NCBI RefSeq assembly: GCF_018889955.1
Contig: NZ_CP076545.1
Span: 558,001 to 622,000 of the forward strand
Reading direction: 5' to 3'
Length of the DNA stretch: 64,000 nucleotides
Source: Collinsella sp. zg1085
GTDB taxonomy: Bacteria > Actinomycetota > Coriobacteriia > Coriobacteriales > Coriobacteriaceae
Shown: in pieces, positions 4,581-36,655 of the stretch
How positions within the stretch are numbered: position 1 is the first letter of the stretch
Layout of the letters: every line of letters begins with the position of its first letter
Translations under genes and position numbers: made by a program
Notes under the pieces: model-generated
Database searches by the model: none
What the model saw: only the letters and a program-made list of their open reading frames with translations
What the model was told of the DNA's origin: nothing

Positions 4581-4607
4581 GTCCAAGGCATATATGAAGC
4601 CTTGGAC
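4581..4607 (+). promoter_or_regulatory. 9-bp perfect hairpin upstream of PTS IIC
   Basis: GTCCAAGGC (4581-4589) pairs perfectly with GCCTTGGAC (4599-4607) around a 9-base AT-rich loop, about 60 bases before the IIC start. There is no T tract, so it is not a typical terminator. A processing or stability element is plausible. Apart from the three hairpins listed for 4336-4667, nothing else was seen in this gap. Confidence 0.4.
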
Positions 4608-4667
4608 AGCTTGCGGTGTGTTGTTAAAACGTGTCAGGTGACACACGGTATGAAAGGGGCTGAACTG

Positions 4668-6059
4668 ATGGACGTTGTAATGCCCGTTCTTGAGTTCTTC
4701 CAGTCAATTTTGACTCAACCGGCATGGATTATGGGTCTTTTCTCGCTTGTAGGTTTGGTTGCGCTGCGCCGTCCTGCTCATAAGGTGCTGACCGGTACGC
4801 TAAAGCCAATTCTGGGCTATCTCATGCTCAGCGCCGGTGCTAACGTGATTTCGGGAAACCTAGCACCACTGGGTACCTTTATTGAGACTGGTTTTCACAT
4901 CACAGGCGTGGTGCCTAACAACGAAGTCGTGGTTTCTATGGCTCAAAACATTTTGGGCGTACAGACCATGGTCATTTTGATTTTGGGCTATGCGGTCAAT
5001 ATTATTGTCGCGCGTTTTACTAAGTATAAGTACATCTTCTTAACCGGACATCACAGTATGTTTATGGCATGTCTGTTTTCAGCGGTGCTCCAGGCCTCAG
5101 GCTTTGAAGGCGTTCAACTGTGCGTGCTGGGCGGTATGTTCTTGGGTTTGATTAGTGCTATTTTGCCAGCTATTGGGCAGCGCTATACCGATCAGTTAAC
5201 TGATAATGATGGTATTGCAATGGGACACTTTGGCTCGTTAGCGTATTATATTTCGGCTGCTGTTGGCTCTTTGTTCAAGAAAGAGGCTGAGACTAACAAC
5301 ACTGAAAAGATTGAGATGCCCGAGCAGCTTTCCTTCCTGCGCGACACTACCATTTCTACGGCTCTAACCATGGCGTTTTTCTACGTTTTGACCGTAATTG
5401 CCGCCTATATTGCCGACCCACAGGTGGTTCAGGGTCTAGCAGGCGAATCAAACGTGATTGTATATGCGCTGACCTGTGCTTTCTCTTTTGCAGTTGGTGT
5501 TACCGTGGTATACAACGGTGTCCGCATGATTTTGGGCGATTTGGTGCCGGCGTTCCAAGGTATTTCAAACAAGCTTATTCCGGGCGCTATTCCGGCGGTG
5601 GACTGTGCGGTATTTTTCCCTTATGCACCTACGGCGGTCATCATTGGCTTTGTGGCTTCTTTTATTGGTGGCGTTGTAGGTATGTTTATTGTGGGTGCTA
5701 CCATGGGAATCTTTATTATTCCTGGTATGGTTCCTCACTTTTTCTGCGGCGCTACTGCAGGTCTTTACGGTAATGCAACGGGTGGTCGTAAAGGCGCTAT
5801 GCTGGGCGCCTTTGTTAATGGCTTGCTGATTACCTTTGCGCCAGCATTGTTGCTGCCGGTGCTTGATGTCTTTGGTTTTAGAAACACCACCTTTGGCGAT
5901 TTTGACTTTGGCGTGGTGGGCATTGTATTGGGTCGTGTGTCTGAGTTCTTGGGACACGGCGGCGTATATGGTTTGCTTGCCTTACTGGTGTTGGTGGTTC
6001 TAGTGCCAAACTTCGTGCAAACTAAGGGTAGTGTAATCAATCATATCGACGAAGAGTAG
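4668..6059 (+). CDS. PTS IIC component, UlaA/SgaT family
   Basis: This 463-residue integral membrane permease of the ascorbate-type PTS is the sugar-translocating subunit. The start is ATG 4668 with AAAGGGG (4653-4659) at good spacing; an upstream ATG at 4650 and the longer open frame lack a ribosome site. There are about ten hydrophobic segments, with UlaA-like TGHHSMFM and a Gly-rich PFF/HFFCG region. No IIA or IIB domain is fused. It is the last gene of the aldolase-PTS operon; a repeat-rich non-coding stretch follows. The substrate class (ascorbate or a related acid or pentose) is inferred from the family. Confidence 0.88.
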   Translation: MDVVMPVLEFFQSILTQPAWIMGLFSLVGLVALRRPAHKVLTGTLKPILGYLMLSAGANVISGNLAPLGTFIETGFHITGVVPNNEVVVSMAQNILGVQTMVILILGYAVNIIVARFTKYKYIFLTGHHSMFMACLFSAVLQASGFEGVQLCVLGGMFLGLISAILPAIGQRYTDQLTDNDGIAMGHFGSLAYYISAAVGSLFKKEAETNNTEKIEMPEQLSFLRDTTISTALTMAFFYVLTVIAAYIADPQVVQGLAGESNVIVYALTCAFSFAVGVTVVYNGVRMILGDLVPAFQGISNKLIPGAIPAVDCAVFFPYAPTAVIIGFVASFIGGVVGMFIVGATMGIFIIPGMVPHFFCGATAGLYGNATGGRKGAMLGAFVNGLLITFAPALLLPVLDVFGFRNTTFGDFDFGVVGIVLGRVSEFLGHGGVYGLLALLVLVVLVPNFVQTKGSVINHIDEE

Positions 6060-6141
6060 GGGATGCGCCGCCGCCCGTTTCCTAGAGGCGGAGCGTGGGG
6101 CGAGCTGTTGTGGCAGCCTTGATTTCGCGCACGTTCAATTG

Positions 6142-6308
6142 GCGGCAGAGGCTTTTCACATCATCTGAGTTGGACGAATGGTACGTAAGCTTGCTACGTG
6201 ACGCAGTACTTTCACTTCAACCAGATTTGACAAGTGATTTGTAAGCTTACGGGGTGGCATAGTACTTTCACCTCGCCTTAGTTTGACGAGTGATTTGCAA
6301 GTGTATTG
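6142..6308. repeat. degenerate ~57-bp tandem repeat array
   Basis: Units begin at 6170, 6227 and 6283 (periods 57 and 56). Each has TTGAC(A/G)AGTGATTTG-like starts, then GGTGGCATAG, then a CTTTTCAC-like word. A partial unit precedes them. Reverse-complement copies occur at 36362-36520. No coding capacity is apparent. Confidence 0.7.
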
Positions 6309-6373
6309 GGTGGCATAGTCTTTTCACGGGAACTGCGCTACGCGAAAGTTCCCTTAGAAAAGCTATGCCACCC
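6309..6373 (-). repeat. 65-bp palindromic element, copy 1
   Basis: The ends GGTGGCATAG and CTATGCCACC are inverted repeats, with further partial symmetry inside (GGGAACT / AGTTCCC-type words). The reverse complement of this copy is base-for-base identical to 36316-36380, about 30 kb away. That identity points to recent duplication, gene conversion or strong constraint. Confidence 0.8.
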
Positions 6374-6452
6374 TTATGCTGTGACTCAACTTACTTTAGC
6401 TTGTGGGTTAGTTTACTTCCTCTGTAGATTGCTTTTCACTTCATCTCAATTA

Positions 6453-6512
6453 GACGAGTGATTGTGCTCTCCGGATGTGCTGCTCAGAATTCTCCGAACC
6501 CAATCGTTCGTC
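6453..6512 (-). repeat. hairpin repeat family, copy 1
   Basis: The reverse complement matches the hairpin elements at 35938-35999 and 36201-36265, sharing loop words TTCGGAGAATT and AGCACAT. The outer arms GACGAGTGATTG (6453-6464) and CAATCGTTCGTC (6501-6512) pair with two positions that would be G-U in RNA. The arms differ from the other copies but stay complementary. Confidence 0.7.
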
Positions 6513-6596
6513 CTCTTCTTAGAGTAAATGCCAAATGCACATAAGTCACCCATCTCACCCCACACCCCGCCATGCACAACTAGCTTGGAATAGCTG

Positions 6597-6762
6597 TTTT
6601 GACAGAAACGGGCAATTTGGCAGCAAATTCTGACAAAAACAGGCAATATGGTAATAAACCCCCTATGGCCGGAAAATCAGCAACACATCTACCTGCAGGT
6701 TTACAAAACAACGAATAACCCACAGGGGTTCTACACTGCCAAATTGCCCATTTCTGTCAAAA
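6597..6762 (+). repeat. 166-bp intergenic element, copy 1
   Basis: It begins TTTTGACAGAAACGGGCAAT and ends with the inverted form of the same word (6736-6762). A second, diverged tandem copy of the terminal word lies at 6628-6652. The centre holds a CTACCTGCAGG word and AACCC/GGGTT-type arms. The reverse complement aligns end to end, without length change, with 35640-35805. No transposase gene or long ORF is inside. Confidence 0.82.
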
Positions 6763-6900
6763 AGGCTTGGATTACACTACTGCCTTTGGAAAGCAGGGTA
6801 GGGAATAACACGTAATCATCGACTGCGGACGGCGCGACTTATGACATATGTCGCATCAATCTTGCTTGAAAAGTACTTAACTCAGTTTCTGTGCAATATC

Positions 6901-7073
6901 TCACATCTGTCGTTTTGGCAAAAATGACGAAAAAGTACTCTATATAACCCAGCGGGTTGATATTTAATTAGTAAAGCTGCAGGTAGATGAGCTGAAAATA
7001 GGTTAACATCTGTCTCTTTACGTCAAACTCGTCAAAAATGACAGTCTTTTGCGTCAAATTAGTCATTTTTGCC
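6901..7073 (+). repeat. 173-bp intergenic element, copy 1
   Basis: It aligns without gaps with 35421-35593 in the same orientation. Inverted ends are GGCAAAAATGAC near the left end and GTCATTTTTGCC at the right end. The core AACCCAGCGGGTT followed by GCAGGTAGATGA resembles the core of the 166-bp element, so both probably belong to one superfamily. No ORF is inside. Confidence 0.82.
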
Positions 7074-7100
7074 ATCGCGCAGGTCAGAGGGGTAATCTGA

Positions 7101-7190
7101 GCGTCAAACTCGTCAGTTTTGCCAACATGCAGGCCAGGAGTATTACACAGACATCAGACCTGTAGCTTTTGCAAAAACGACAGGGGTAGT
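7101..7190 (+). repeat. degenerate third copy of the terminal-word element
   Basis: It starts with GTCAAACTCGTCAGTTTTGC, the same word type found in the 173-bp element, and ends near TTTTGCAAAAACGAC. The middle carries GCAGGCC and GACCTGT arms. It lacks the full core and looks like a shortened or decayed member. Confidence 0.5.
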
Positions 7191-34912: not shown

Positions 34913-35420
34913 GGGTAATTGCGTGGAGTGGATAGTAGGGGTCTTGCTTTAAGTGTTTTTTGCTTTGAGTGGGGGAAAGCTGACTTTGTACTAGGTGTTT
35001 GTACGTGGTTATGATTGAGTAAAAAGGTTCAACTTCTCGCTCAAGCTGTCATCGTGAAACCAAATCAACGTAGTGTACGATTTTCTTGACTAGGGGCAAG
35101 TACACTCCATTGCAGTAAAGCGTCTTTCCTGCGGAAATGCTGAAAATCTTGCTTATACCGACCCCTTATACTCAGGTTGCTACCAAAATTTCGTACGCTA
35201 GATTGATTAACTTCCAGAACCTCAGAGTTATCGCAATTTCACAGGAACGTTGTCTACTTCAAGAACCCATGTGGCTTTCAAAGTTAAGTCAAAACCTTAC
35301 CGCAGCATATAGATAGTGAATCGCTGCACGTTGGAGTAATGCGCTGACATTGCATCACAGAACGAAGTAGCACCACGACTGCACTGCCCTGAGGACTGAT
35401 GCTCTTGCTACATCGATAAG

Positions 35421-35593
35421 TTACACCTGTCGCTTTGGCAAAAATGACGAAAAAGTACTCTCTATAACCCAGCGGGTTAGTATTTATTTTGCGAAGCCGC
35501 AGGTAGATAAGCCGAGAGTAAGTTAACAATTGTCTCTTTATGCCAAATTCGTCAAAAATGCCAGATTTTTGCGTCAAATTAGTCATTTTTGCC
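35421..35593 (+). repeat. 173-bp intergenic element, copy 2
   Basis: It aligns over its whole length with 6901-7073 in the same orientation, with scattered substitutions. The inverted ends with GGCAAAAATGAC and GTCATTTTTGCC are kept, as is the AACCCAGCGGGTT core. It is separated from the 166-bp element by 46 bases. Confidence 0.82.
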
Positions 35594-35639
35594 AAATCGC
35601 TGGTCAGCAGTATTGCACGTGCGATTCTAGTCCAACCTC

Positions 35640-35805
35640 TTTTGACAGAAACGGGCAATTTGGCAGTGTAGAACCCCCGTGGGTTATTCGTTATTATGTG
35701 AACCTACAGGTAGATGACTTGCGGTTCTCCGTGACATAGGGGGTTTATTGCCAGATTGCCTATTTTTGTCAGTTTTTACTACCAGATTGCCCGTTTCTGT
35801 CAAAA
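35640..35805 (-). repeat. 166-bp intergenic element, copy 2
   Basis: The reverse complement aligns end to end with 6597-6762. Terminal TTTTGACAGAAACGGGCAAT words and the internal CTACCTG(C/T)AGG word are conserved. The AACCCCCGTGGGTT core is on the plus strand here. Confidence 0.82.
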
Positions 35806-35937
35806 TTGCTCATTCAAGTTGGAGTTGTTTTGGAATCTGTTCGTGCATATGAAGAAACGAGCTGTTTTCAGGGAAGTGTTCACAGGACACAGCTTTATTG
35901 AACTGCAGTTTGCTTTAAGTACAGTAAATAGCTGAAT

Positions 35938-35999
35938 GACCAAGGTATTGCGTTCGGAGAATTCTGCGAAGCACATTCGTAGAAAGCAATACCTTGGTC
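35938..35999 (+). repeat. hairpin repeat family, copy 2
   Basis: GACCAAGGTATTGC (35938-35951) and GCAATACCTTGGTC (35986-35999) form a perfect 14-bp stem. The enclosed 34 bases contain GTTCGGAGAATTCTGCGAAG and AGCACATTCG, shared with the two other copies. The stem sequence is unlike the others. Confidence 0.8.
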
Positions 36000-36200
36000 T
36001 ATTTCAAGTTGAGAAACGAGTATGTTTCGCAAAGTACATGTTCTCAAGGAAACTCTCAGGAAGAGTGCTTCCCTTGAAGTAGGTATTCCGCTTTTGCCTT
36101 GTAAGAGCTTCAACCCCAACCTTTTCATCTTATACGCACTGCTTGTGCATGGCGGGGTGTGGGGTAAGCTGAGTGTATAAATAGGTCTTTACTGTAAGAG

Positions 36201-36265
36201 GGGACGAATGATTGCGTTCGGAGAATTGTTGCGTAGCACATTCGGAGAGCACAATCATTCGTCCC
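36201..36265 (+). repeat. hairpin repeat family, copy 3
   Basis: GGGACGAATGATTG (36201-36214) and CAATCATTCGTCCC (36252-36265) form a perfect 14-bp stem. The inner region has GTTCGGAGAATTGTTGCGTA and AGCACATTCGGAGAG. The stem differs from that at 35938 while the inner words are the same. Confidence 0.8.
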
Positions 36266-36315
36266 GTTGAGATGGAGCTACTGTACAAAGCAGGTGATAT
36301 AGGGCTTCTACATAG

Positions 36316-36380
36316 GGGTGGCATAGCTTTTCTAAGGGAACTTTCGCGTAGCGCAGTTCCCGTGAAAAGACTATGCCACC
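36316..36380 (+). repeat. 65-bp palindromic element, copy 2
   Basis: This copy is identical to the reverse complement of 6309-6373. Inverted ends GGTGGCATAG and CTATGCCACC flank GGGAACTTTCGCG and CGCAGTTCCCG words. Confidence 0.8.
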
Positions 36381-36520
36381 TTAGAGACGTGCAAATCACT
36401 CGTCCAATCGGTGAAGCAAAAGTCTCTGCCGCCCCATATGCTTACGAACCATTCGCCCAGCTTAGACGATGAAAAGACTACGCCGCCCCATAGGCTTGCA
36501 ATTCATTCGCTCAGTTGGCG
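36362..36520 (-). repeat. degenerate ~57-bp units, mosaic B
   Basis: Three diverged units are read on the minus strand, with CAAATCACTCGTC, GCCGCCCCATA and GTGAAAAGAC-type words. They correspond to the tandem array at 6142-6308. Confidence 0.6.
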
Positions 36521-36655
36521 TAATTGAAACAACTTAAAGCGAAACCAGTGCAGCAACCACGGCTTACCCCACACCGCGCCTTTAGGAAACAAGCAGCGGC
36601 GTATACCTTCATGTTAGAATGCCCACCAGATTATCTCACGGTAAAAGGAGCTTAC

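Follow-up and report, generated by a model that had tools for sequence, protein, structure and literature searches.

Hairpins with a common cap and differing stems at gene ends, and their copies in a mosaic repeat of Collinsella sp. zg1085

Introduction

Does a hairpin whose inner sequence is shared by several copies, while its paired stem differs between them, tell of a structure that is being kept up? The question is raised by a 64-kb stretch of DNA (the window, positions 558001-622000 of the single 1,720,218-base contig of a 1.72 Mb genome, here G000), in which an earlier note took such stems for the signature of selection on an RNA or cruciform structure. Our best reading is that the window holds a structured 3′-end element which in G000 has been swept into a repeat, and it seems to be the fold as such that is maintained. 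The hairpins described here form a natural set in which the stem is free, shape, cap and, as a rule, one internal loop persist, and the same gene ends are occupied in several species. They offer a clean case for studying the joint change of the two stem arms, whether by selection or by template switching. They also point to an unrecognised element, acting at 3′ ends or through DNA structure, downstream of rpsJ, rplX, groEL and other genes, and the window genome shows the fate of such elements once they are swept into a multiplying repeat. In the open-licence literature, no paper describing these hairpins was found.

Hairpins in the Window

Hairpin A (35938-35999, plus strand) has arms GACCAAGGTATTGC / GCAATACCTTGGTC that pair perfectly over 14 bp, and encloses a GGA/GTA internal loop, the inner pairs GAAT/ATTC and the cap TCTGCGAAGCAC. 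Hairpin B (36201-36265, plus strand) has arms GGGACGAATGATTG / CAATCATTCGTCCC, likewise a perfect 14 bp, around a core that is that of A plus a 1-nt insertion. A decayed copy of B lies on the minus strand at 6453-6512, with arms GACGAGTGATTG / CAATCGTTCGTC and, read on the plus strand, two G.T positions. The inner word TTCGGAGAATT was found exactly at 35953 and 36217 on the plus strand and at 6488 on the minus strand, and AGCACAT is present in all three hairpins. The letters thus confirm what had been described earlier, namely two perfect 14-bp stems of differing sequence, a third, reverse copy with two would-be G-U pairs, and two inner words common to all of them. With one mismatch allowed, TTCGGAGAATT has five matches in the window against 0.93 ± 0.99 in shuffled sequence, and none of 100 shuffles reached five. 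Folded as DNA on the plus strand, the perfect hairpins A and B reach z values of -8.75 and -5.23, and both far exceed their shuffles whether folded as DNA or as RNA; the decayed copy does not, its DNA folding being unremarkable (z -0.36 and -1.39).

About 50 bp beyond hairpin B lies a different hairpin, C (36317-36380, plus strand), which was not part of the earlier finding. Its layout is GGTGGCATAG.CTTTTC-TAA-GGGAACT-TT-CGC-GTA-GCG-C-AGTTCCC-GT-GAAAAG, it has 28 sites in the window genome, and a second window copy lies on the minus strand at 6308-6373, where the two family models introduced below (R2 and R3) match at 6310-6371. Rfam gave no match in the window at gathering scores.

Copies across the Genome

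A search with the 27-base core common to A and B, allowing two mismatches, found 41 sites in G000 and none in 57 relatives, and a scan of the genome collection with the same core gave no match; searching with the inner words, as had been proposed, yields further copies in the genome itself and none in these 57 relatives. A substitution-only scan of the G000 stretches that were fetched gave 44 matches, of which 591479 (inside a gene) and 394691 (out of register) were dropped; the window's B copy at 36201 stands outside the remaining 42 owing to its 1-nt insertion. These alignable copies comprise 20 of class A, 18 of class B and four chimeras (260272, 1275529, 1297466 and 1649058) with a left arm of A and a right arm of B, whose outer arms cannot pair. 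No new stems came to light in G000, only A, B and these chimeras, and the stems of each class are nearly fixed over some 20 copies. Identical stems in all other copies had been named in advance as the result that would speak against covariation, and within G000 this is nearly what was found.

Covariation between the arms is at the level of shuffled alignments in class A (309 of 500 shuffles reach the observed score) and weak in class B (21 of 500 by score, 36 of 500 by the number of pairs changed on both sides). When all 42 copies are pooled, none of 500 shuffles reaches the score, and this signal arises from the fixed difference between A and B. Between the two classes five pairs are compensated (columns 5/62, 7/60, 9/58, 10/57 and 11/56) and three more partly so; their consensus arms agree at three of the outer nine positions, which is about chance, and the core is almost identical. 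Core markers are mixed across both classes, and exchange through the shared core, as seen in the chimeras, explains how one common inside came to have two outsides. In G000 alone, the covariation signature that had been read from the window is one fixed difference between two paralogues. In the internal loop of the 42 copies, which were found through the core with few mismatches, G is kept in 40 and A in all 42, and the middle base can be any of the four.

The Mosaic Repeat

All three hairpins, A, B and C, are parts of a mosaic repeat without coding sequence, which self-BLAST finds at 22 loci of G000 with spans of 0.3-2.2 kb. In the window it occupies 35057-36621 on the plus strand (G000 593057-594621), and a rearranged second copy on the minus strand at 6055-7132 (G000 564055-565132) begins at the stop codon of an EIIC-GAT gene (4602-6059). 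Besides the hairpins, the first copy contains, all on the plus strand, the inverted-repeat elements M1 (about 169 bp, 35431-35599) and M2 (166 bp, 35640-35805), degenerate tandem units of 53-56 bp, here called U (36365-36514), and an end motif T (36562-36597), which in this case does not lie 2-20 bp past a stop codon and faces the start of a HAD gene. Stretch 35420-36620 is 76-84% identical to its best copies in the same genome and has no match in the 57 relatives at E ≤ 0.001. At four loci the repeat takes a two-sided form of 2.1-2.2 kb, reading T, U, C, B, A, M1, M2 and then A, B, C, U, T reversed. At G000 1275645, hairpin C is inverted relative to its neighbours.

The ends of the repeat are themselves placed at genes. 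A scan of the fetched G000 stretches for T gave 35 matches, 13 of which were read as an internal copy (t), leaving 22, and it missed the T end at 160351. At 14 of these 22 ends, a long open frame that points into the repeat stops 2-20 bp before T; at two the distance is 93-115 bp, and six have no such frame. Closeness to ORF ends is already known for REPs (PMC3733652), so that this result alone is not new.

M2, whose arms are of the TTTTGACAGAAAYGGGCAATTTGGCAG type and which has a second window copy at 6592-6767, also stands free of the composite, with 11 stand-alone copies in the fetched G000 stretches; one copy at G000 419965-420190 carries extra 31-bp units. M1 and M2 share a common inside (CCC..GGGTTA..CAGGTAGAT) and differ in their arms, again two arm classes round one inside. 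Both have terminal inverted repeats, as MITEs do; judged by eye, their flanks show no clear target-site duplication, and no empty site was found (PF01797 being the sole transposase family searched). At the nrdF locus no empty site was obtained from the named relatives, in which synteny is not kept. A ribonucleotide reductase small chain encoded in G000 is 90% identical to that of Collinsella vaginalis, and the named matches that come next belong largely to Olsenella and other Coriobacteria, along with some Firmicutes bins. The arms of M1 and M2 show no clear covariation, and those of M2 vary independently: at position 12/153, 38 rows divide into CG 12, TG 11, CA 8, TA 6 and CC 1. A marginal R2 match (E 0.048) lies near a free-standing M2, at G000 1362095 (L083:4096-4164).

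Taken by itself, the window may therefore be read as holding, in A and B, paralogous modules of a mosaic MITE- or BIME-like repeat, whose copies need have no function. The 22 loci, the two stem classes, the chimeras, the lack of clear covariation within a class and the independent arms of M2 all agree with such an origin, which is compatible with the other readings discussed below; it leaves unexplained the homologues found in another family, and we regard it as possible but on balance doubtful. A phage or plasmid origin was considered and rejected: a 1201-base stretch of the repeat has no match among phage or plasmid sequences, a first scan of viral contigs gave no match, and two later patterns gave one match each, neither of them, by eye, within a visible hairpin.

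Homologous Hairpins in Another Genus

A covariance model of the 42 G000 copies (R1) matched two of 197 genomes at E ≤ 0.01, G000 itself and, at one place (E 2.2e-4), G101, which belongs to another family of the same order. The G101 locus holds two adjoining hairpins with the same cap and quite different paired stems. The covariance-model check proposed earlier thus led to a covarying family in a genus here called g13, which is probably Olsenella-like, although R1 itself matched only that one place beyond G000. When 148 genomes were searched with the pattern AAGTTYYGCGNAGCRCACTT, allowing three mismatches, the six g13 genomes among them gave 7-22 matches against 2-5 for the reversed control, the weakest being G117 (7 against 4), and G000 gave 34 against 2.

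A script was run over 60 fetched regions, asking for the cap T[TC]NNNGNANNNC, pairing at the apex and no fewer than five inner pairs. It returned 61 hairpins: 42 of type I, with pairing at 21 or more of 26 positions, 12 of type II (assigned by TAA) and seven poorer ones. Alignment A4 takes 38 of the 42 type I hairpins, L222, L227, L228 and L246 being omitted for their other loop geometry, and alignment A5 the 12 type II rows. In A4, 99.2% of 925 cells are paired against 79.6 ± 0.8% when shuffled, and in A5 99.7%, percentages that are inflated by the selection criteria, which also make the cap invariant in both alignments by construction. Of the 25 pairs in A4, 22 are changed on both sides, in 178 cells, a result reached by none of 500 shuffles; sliding the alignment by 1-3 columns leaves at most 12 such pairs and 52.5% pairing. 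In A5, 19 of 25 pairs are changed on both sides. Single-sided intermediates occupy only seven of the 925 A4 cells.

Although the script set no condition on the internal loop, the loop recurs: GNA/GNA in 35 of the 38 A4 hairpins (35 of 42 with the omitted four) and GT opposite TAA in 11 of 12 type II hairpins. Perfect stems that have no internal loop also occur (L227, L228, L295, L299 and L301), and the loops are therefore not essential. R2, a model of type I, has matches at E ≤ 1e-4 in all but one of the 60 regions, from which it was itself built; the cap T[TC]NNNGNANNNC is present at 61 of its 68 places there and at 24 of 28 in 20 regions fetched later, a figure to be read with R2's own preference for the cap. 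The C-G pair that closes the cap is found in 37 of 37 and 12 of 12 distinct rows while neighbouring pairs covary, the seed pattern itself asking for that pair.

R2 and its type II counterpart R3 were built solely from genus g13, and they recover the window hairpins. R2 finds A (E 5.6e-6 in 124 kb, 1.6e-5 in 349 kb), C is found by both (R2 8.5e-9, R3 1.2e-8), and several B copies elsewhere in G000 are found by R2 (for example L011:5685-5740, E 7.3e-6); neither model matches the window's own B (36201-36265) at E ≤ 0.1 or the decayed copy at 6453-6512. From this recovery it follows that C is type II and A and B are type I, and that the split into two types is present in both families. Over 349 kb of G000, R2 has 56 matches at E ≤ 0.1, the best of them (8.6e-12) a C copy, and R3 has 34. 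Across the 197 genomes R2 matches 48 and R3 41, with at least 27 matches each in G000 and at least 174 for R2 over 12 genomes of g13; 18 other species of the window genome's own genus carry 1-4 R2 copies, several with C.C replacing one cap pair.

These hairpins are a family of about 62 nt, located at gene ends in part of the order. What is kept in them is the cap (T-Y, three pairs of which the last is C-G, a GNA loop, then C) and mostly the internal loop (GNA/GNA or TAA/GT). Elsewhere in the stem the two arms change jointly, from one copy to the next and, at one gene, from one species to the next. The earlier claim that pairing is maintained while the stem sequence changes therefore holds for the homologous hairpins in g13, whereas neither the three window copies nor the other G000 copies demonstrate it. 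Upkeep of structure is right for the family, whether by selection or by mutation.

Template switching alters both arms of an inverted repeat in one event and could give covariation with little selection. Such homogenisation of arms is documented, with multi-base compensatory changes and spacer inversion (PMC8794818; PMC8604942), and would explain both the near absence of single-sided intermediates and perfect palindromes such as the copy after prs (G000 1598871-1598932, L024:1872-1933, the gene being named by eye), a C hairpin that is palindromic through its internal loop, or L295, L299 and L301, which stand beside looped copies. By itself, however, it does not explain why the internal loop is mostly left imperfect, as the same process should correct that mismatch too, nor why several species carry hairpins at corresponding genes and two families carry them after rpsJ; template switching is moreover a process and not a family. 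That mutation is the main source of the stem covariation, and that the structure is under little selection, we hold to be quite improbable.

Exchange of the kind that made the A/B chimeras may be seen at L211 and L223: between a pair of genes, G101 carries two hairpins and G117 a single chimeric one.

Position at Gene Ends

For the 61 hairpins of the script, gene ends were sought up to 60 nt away from a reference point set 12 nt into the stem; 40 have one on the antisense strand and 15 one on the same strand, some having both, with frame calls that are crude in GC-rich DNA and some printed frames surely wrong. In 27 chosen antisense cases, stem and stop codon are 6-109 nt apart, and in 19 of them 10-35. 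The GNA loops are borne by the strand that is not transcribed with the adjacent gene. When adjacent genes were clustered by Blast, one gene was found to be followed by differing stems in several species: rplX has downstream hairpins with different stems in G046, G101, G111 and G117, and groEL is followed by a type II hairpin in one species and by type I in three. Adjacent genes named through Pfam include rplX, an ABC transporter and a class I tRNA synthetase. Hairpins also follow rpsJ, recognised by its C-terminal sequence, both in the window genome's family (L299, L304, L305) and in the other family (L235, L237), and there too the GNA loops lie on the strand opposite the coding one. Pairs of hairpins in opposite orientation occur.

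Position, orientation and choice of gene suggest action at transcript 3′ ends. The likeness to an intrinsic terminator is evident, in that a GC-rich hairpin follows soon after the stop codon and each gene has its own stem; unlike a terminator, the family has a conserved cap and internal loop and is not followed by a U-tract, U on the sense strand making up 57% of the bases immediately past the stem and no more than 40% at any later position. A plain intrinsic terminator is for this reason doubtful, and the canonical form was rejected. Candidate 3′-UTR RNAs such as the L17 downstream element resemble the family in having a conserved structure downstream of a ribosomal protein gene and a strand that is hard to decide (PMC2864571). 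The family is unlike Collinsella-1 (RF01700), which has no gathering-score match in the window and none in ten g13 loci searched to E 5; in those loci only tRNA stood above the Rfam cut-off, with sub-threshold matches to microRNA precursors down to E 2.1e-4.

RNA or DNA

The fold that matters might also be one of DNA, a hairpin or cruciform of the GNA (template) strand with a d(cGNAg) mini-hairpin cap, bound by a DNA-acting protein at gene ends. The d(GCGNAGC) hairpin is unusually stable. An RNA helix should tolerate G.U, so it counts against RNA that within the helices of 90 hits G.T is not clearly commoner than A.C (15 against 11, p 0.56). The nearly pure Watson-Crick helices and the untranscribed GNA strand, at rpsJ as elsewhere, pull toward DNA, and the constant C-G closure of the cap amid covarying neighbours and the GNA/GNA loops that retain G and A with a free middle base are in keeping with it. 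Against it, G.T outnumbers A.C by 11 to 2 on A4 and A5 alone and by 44 to 22 cells among the G000 A and B copies, which are not independent of each other, as if G.T were tolerated; the spacing past stop codons suits RNA at least equally, and no candidate protein was found. We consider a functional DNA fold somewhat unlikely. Its extended form, an order-wide gene-end element working as single-stranded or cruciform DNA, in which a d(cGNAg)-capped template-strand hairpin with sheared-GA internal loops would be read by a putative protein, and template switching would renew the free stem letters so that each gene has its own stem round a common cap, is in our judgement unlikely.

We return to the preferred reading, a gene-end hairpin family with action at the 3′ end. 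The structure would serve the transcript's 3′ end, either in the manner of a terminator or by protecting that end; cap and loop would probably be read by a putative protein, and the stems would be kept perfect by selection, aided by template switching between the arms. In G000, hairpins A, B and C would have been caught in the non-coding mosaic repeat and multiplied with it to 22 loci, a multiplication that may have frozen the stems into three classes, after which exchange through the shared A/B core could have produced the mixed core markers and the chimeras. As a whole, from 3′-end action and recognition of cap and loop to the sweep into a repeat, we give this explanation not quite an even chance.

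Comparison with Known Repeats

Structured palindromes at gene ends are a known kind of element, and the variant described here has no Rfam match above cut-off in what was searched. Closest in habit are the REP and BIME elements of the GTAG and CGTC superfamilies, which are also repeated intergenic hairpins by gene 3′ ends with dimers and mosaic clusters, REPs lying within 20 bp of ORF 3′ ends (PMC3733652). The present family likewise lies close to ORF 3′ ends and occurs in dimers. It differs in that its hairpins are 62 nt long against 20-40 for REPs, no linked RAYT is seen, and stems differ between species at the same gene; position frequencies around 53 hairpins reveal, beyond the stem, no conserved tetranucleotide that would correspond to a GTAG or CGTC tag. 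The pneumococcal BOX, RUP and SPRITE repeats are also modular and structured, and over-represented between convergent genes (PMC3049150), with other sequences and other modules and a BOX length of 67-637 bp, against 0.3-2.2 kb for the G000 composite.

It has thus to be asked whether the hairpins are REP-like mobile palindromes, spread by a RAYT/Y1 transposase and filling the spaces at gene ends. The opposite-orientation pairs and the closeness to ORF ends recall REPs, and in a chosen set of genomes Y1_Tnp is present in 20 of 24 that bear hairpins and in one of six that do not. It was not found, however, in G000, G046, G117 or G165, and among the 53 Y1 places the 24 that were examined, with flanks of about 1.5-2 kb, all lack an R2 or R3 match at E ≤ 0.1. 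Different stems at one gene in different species are unlike copied REPs, and the tag is missing as well. With no Y1_Tnp found in the window genome and no family hairpin at those 24 places, mobilisation by RAYT is unsupported, and we hold a REP-like origin to be highly improbable. Several of the Y1 transposase genes (L314-L333) adjoin other palindromes, such as GCCTAAAAGGGGCCTGTCCCCTTTTAGGC, which are possibly REP-like partners of their own.
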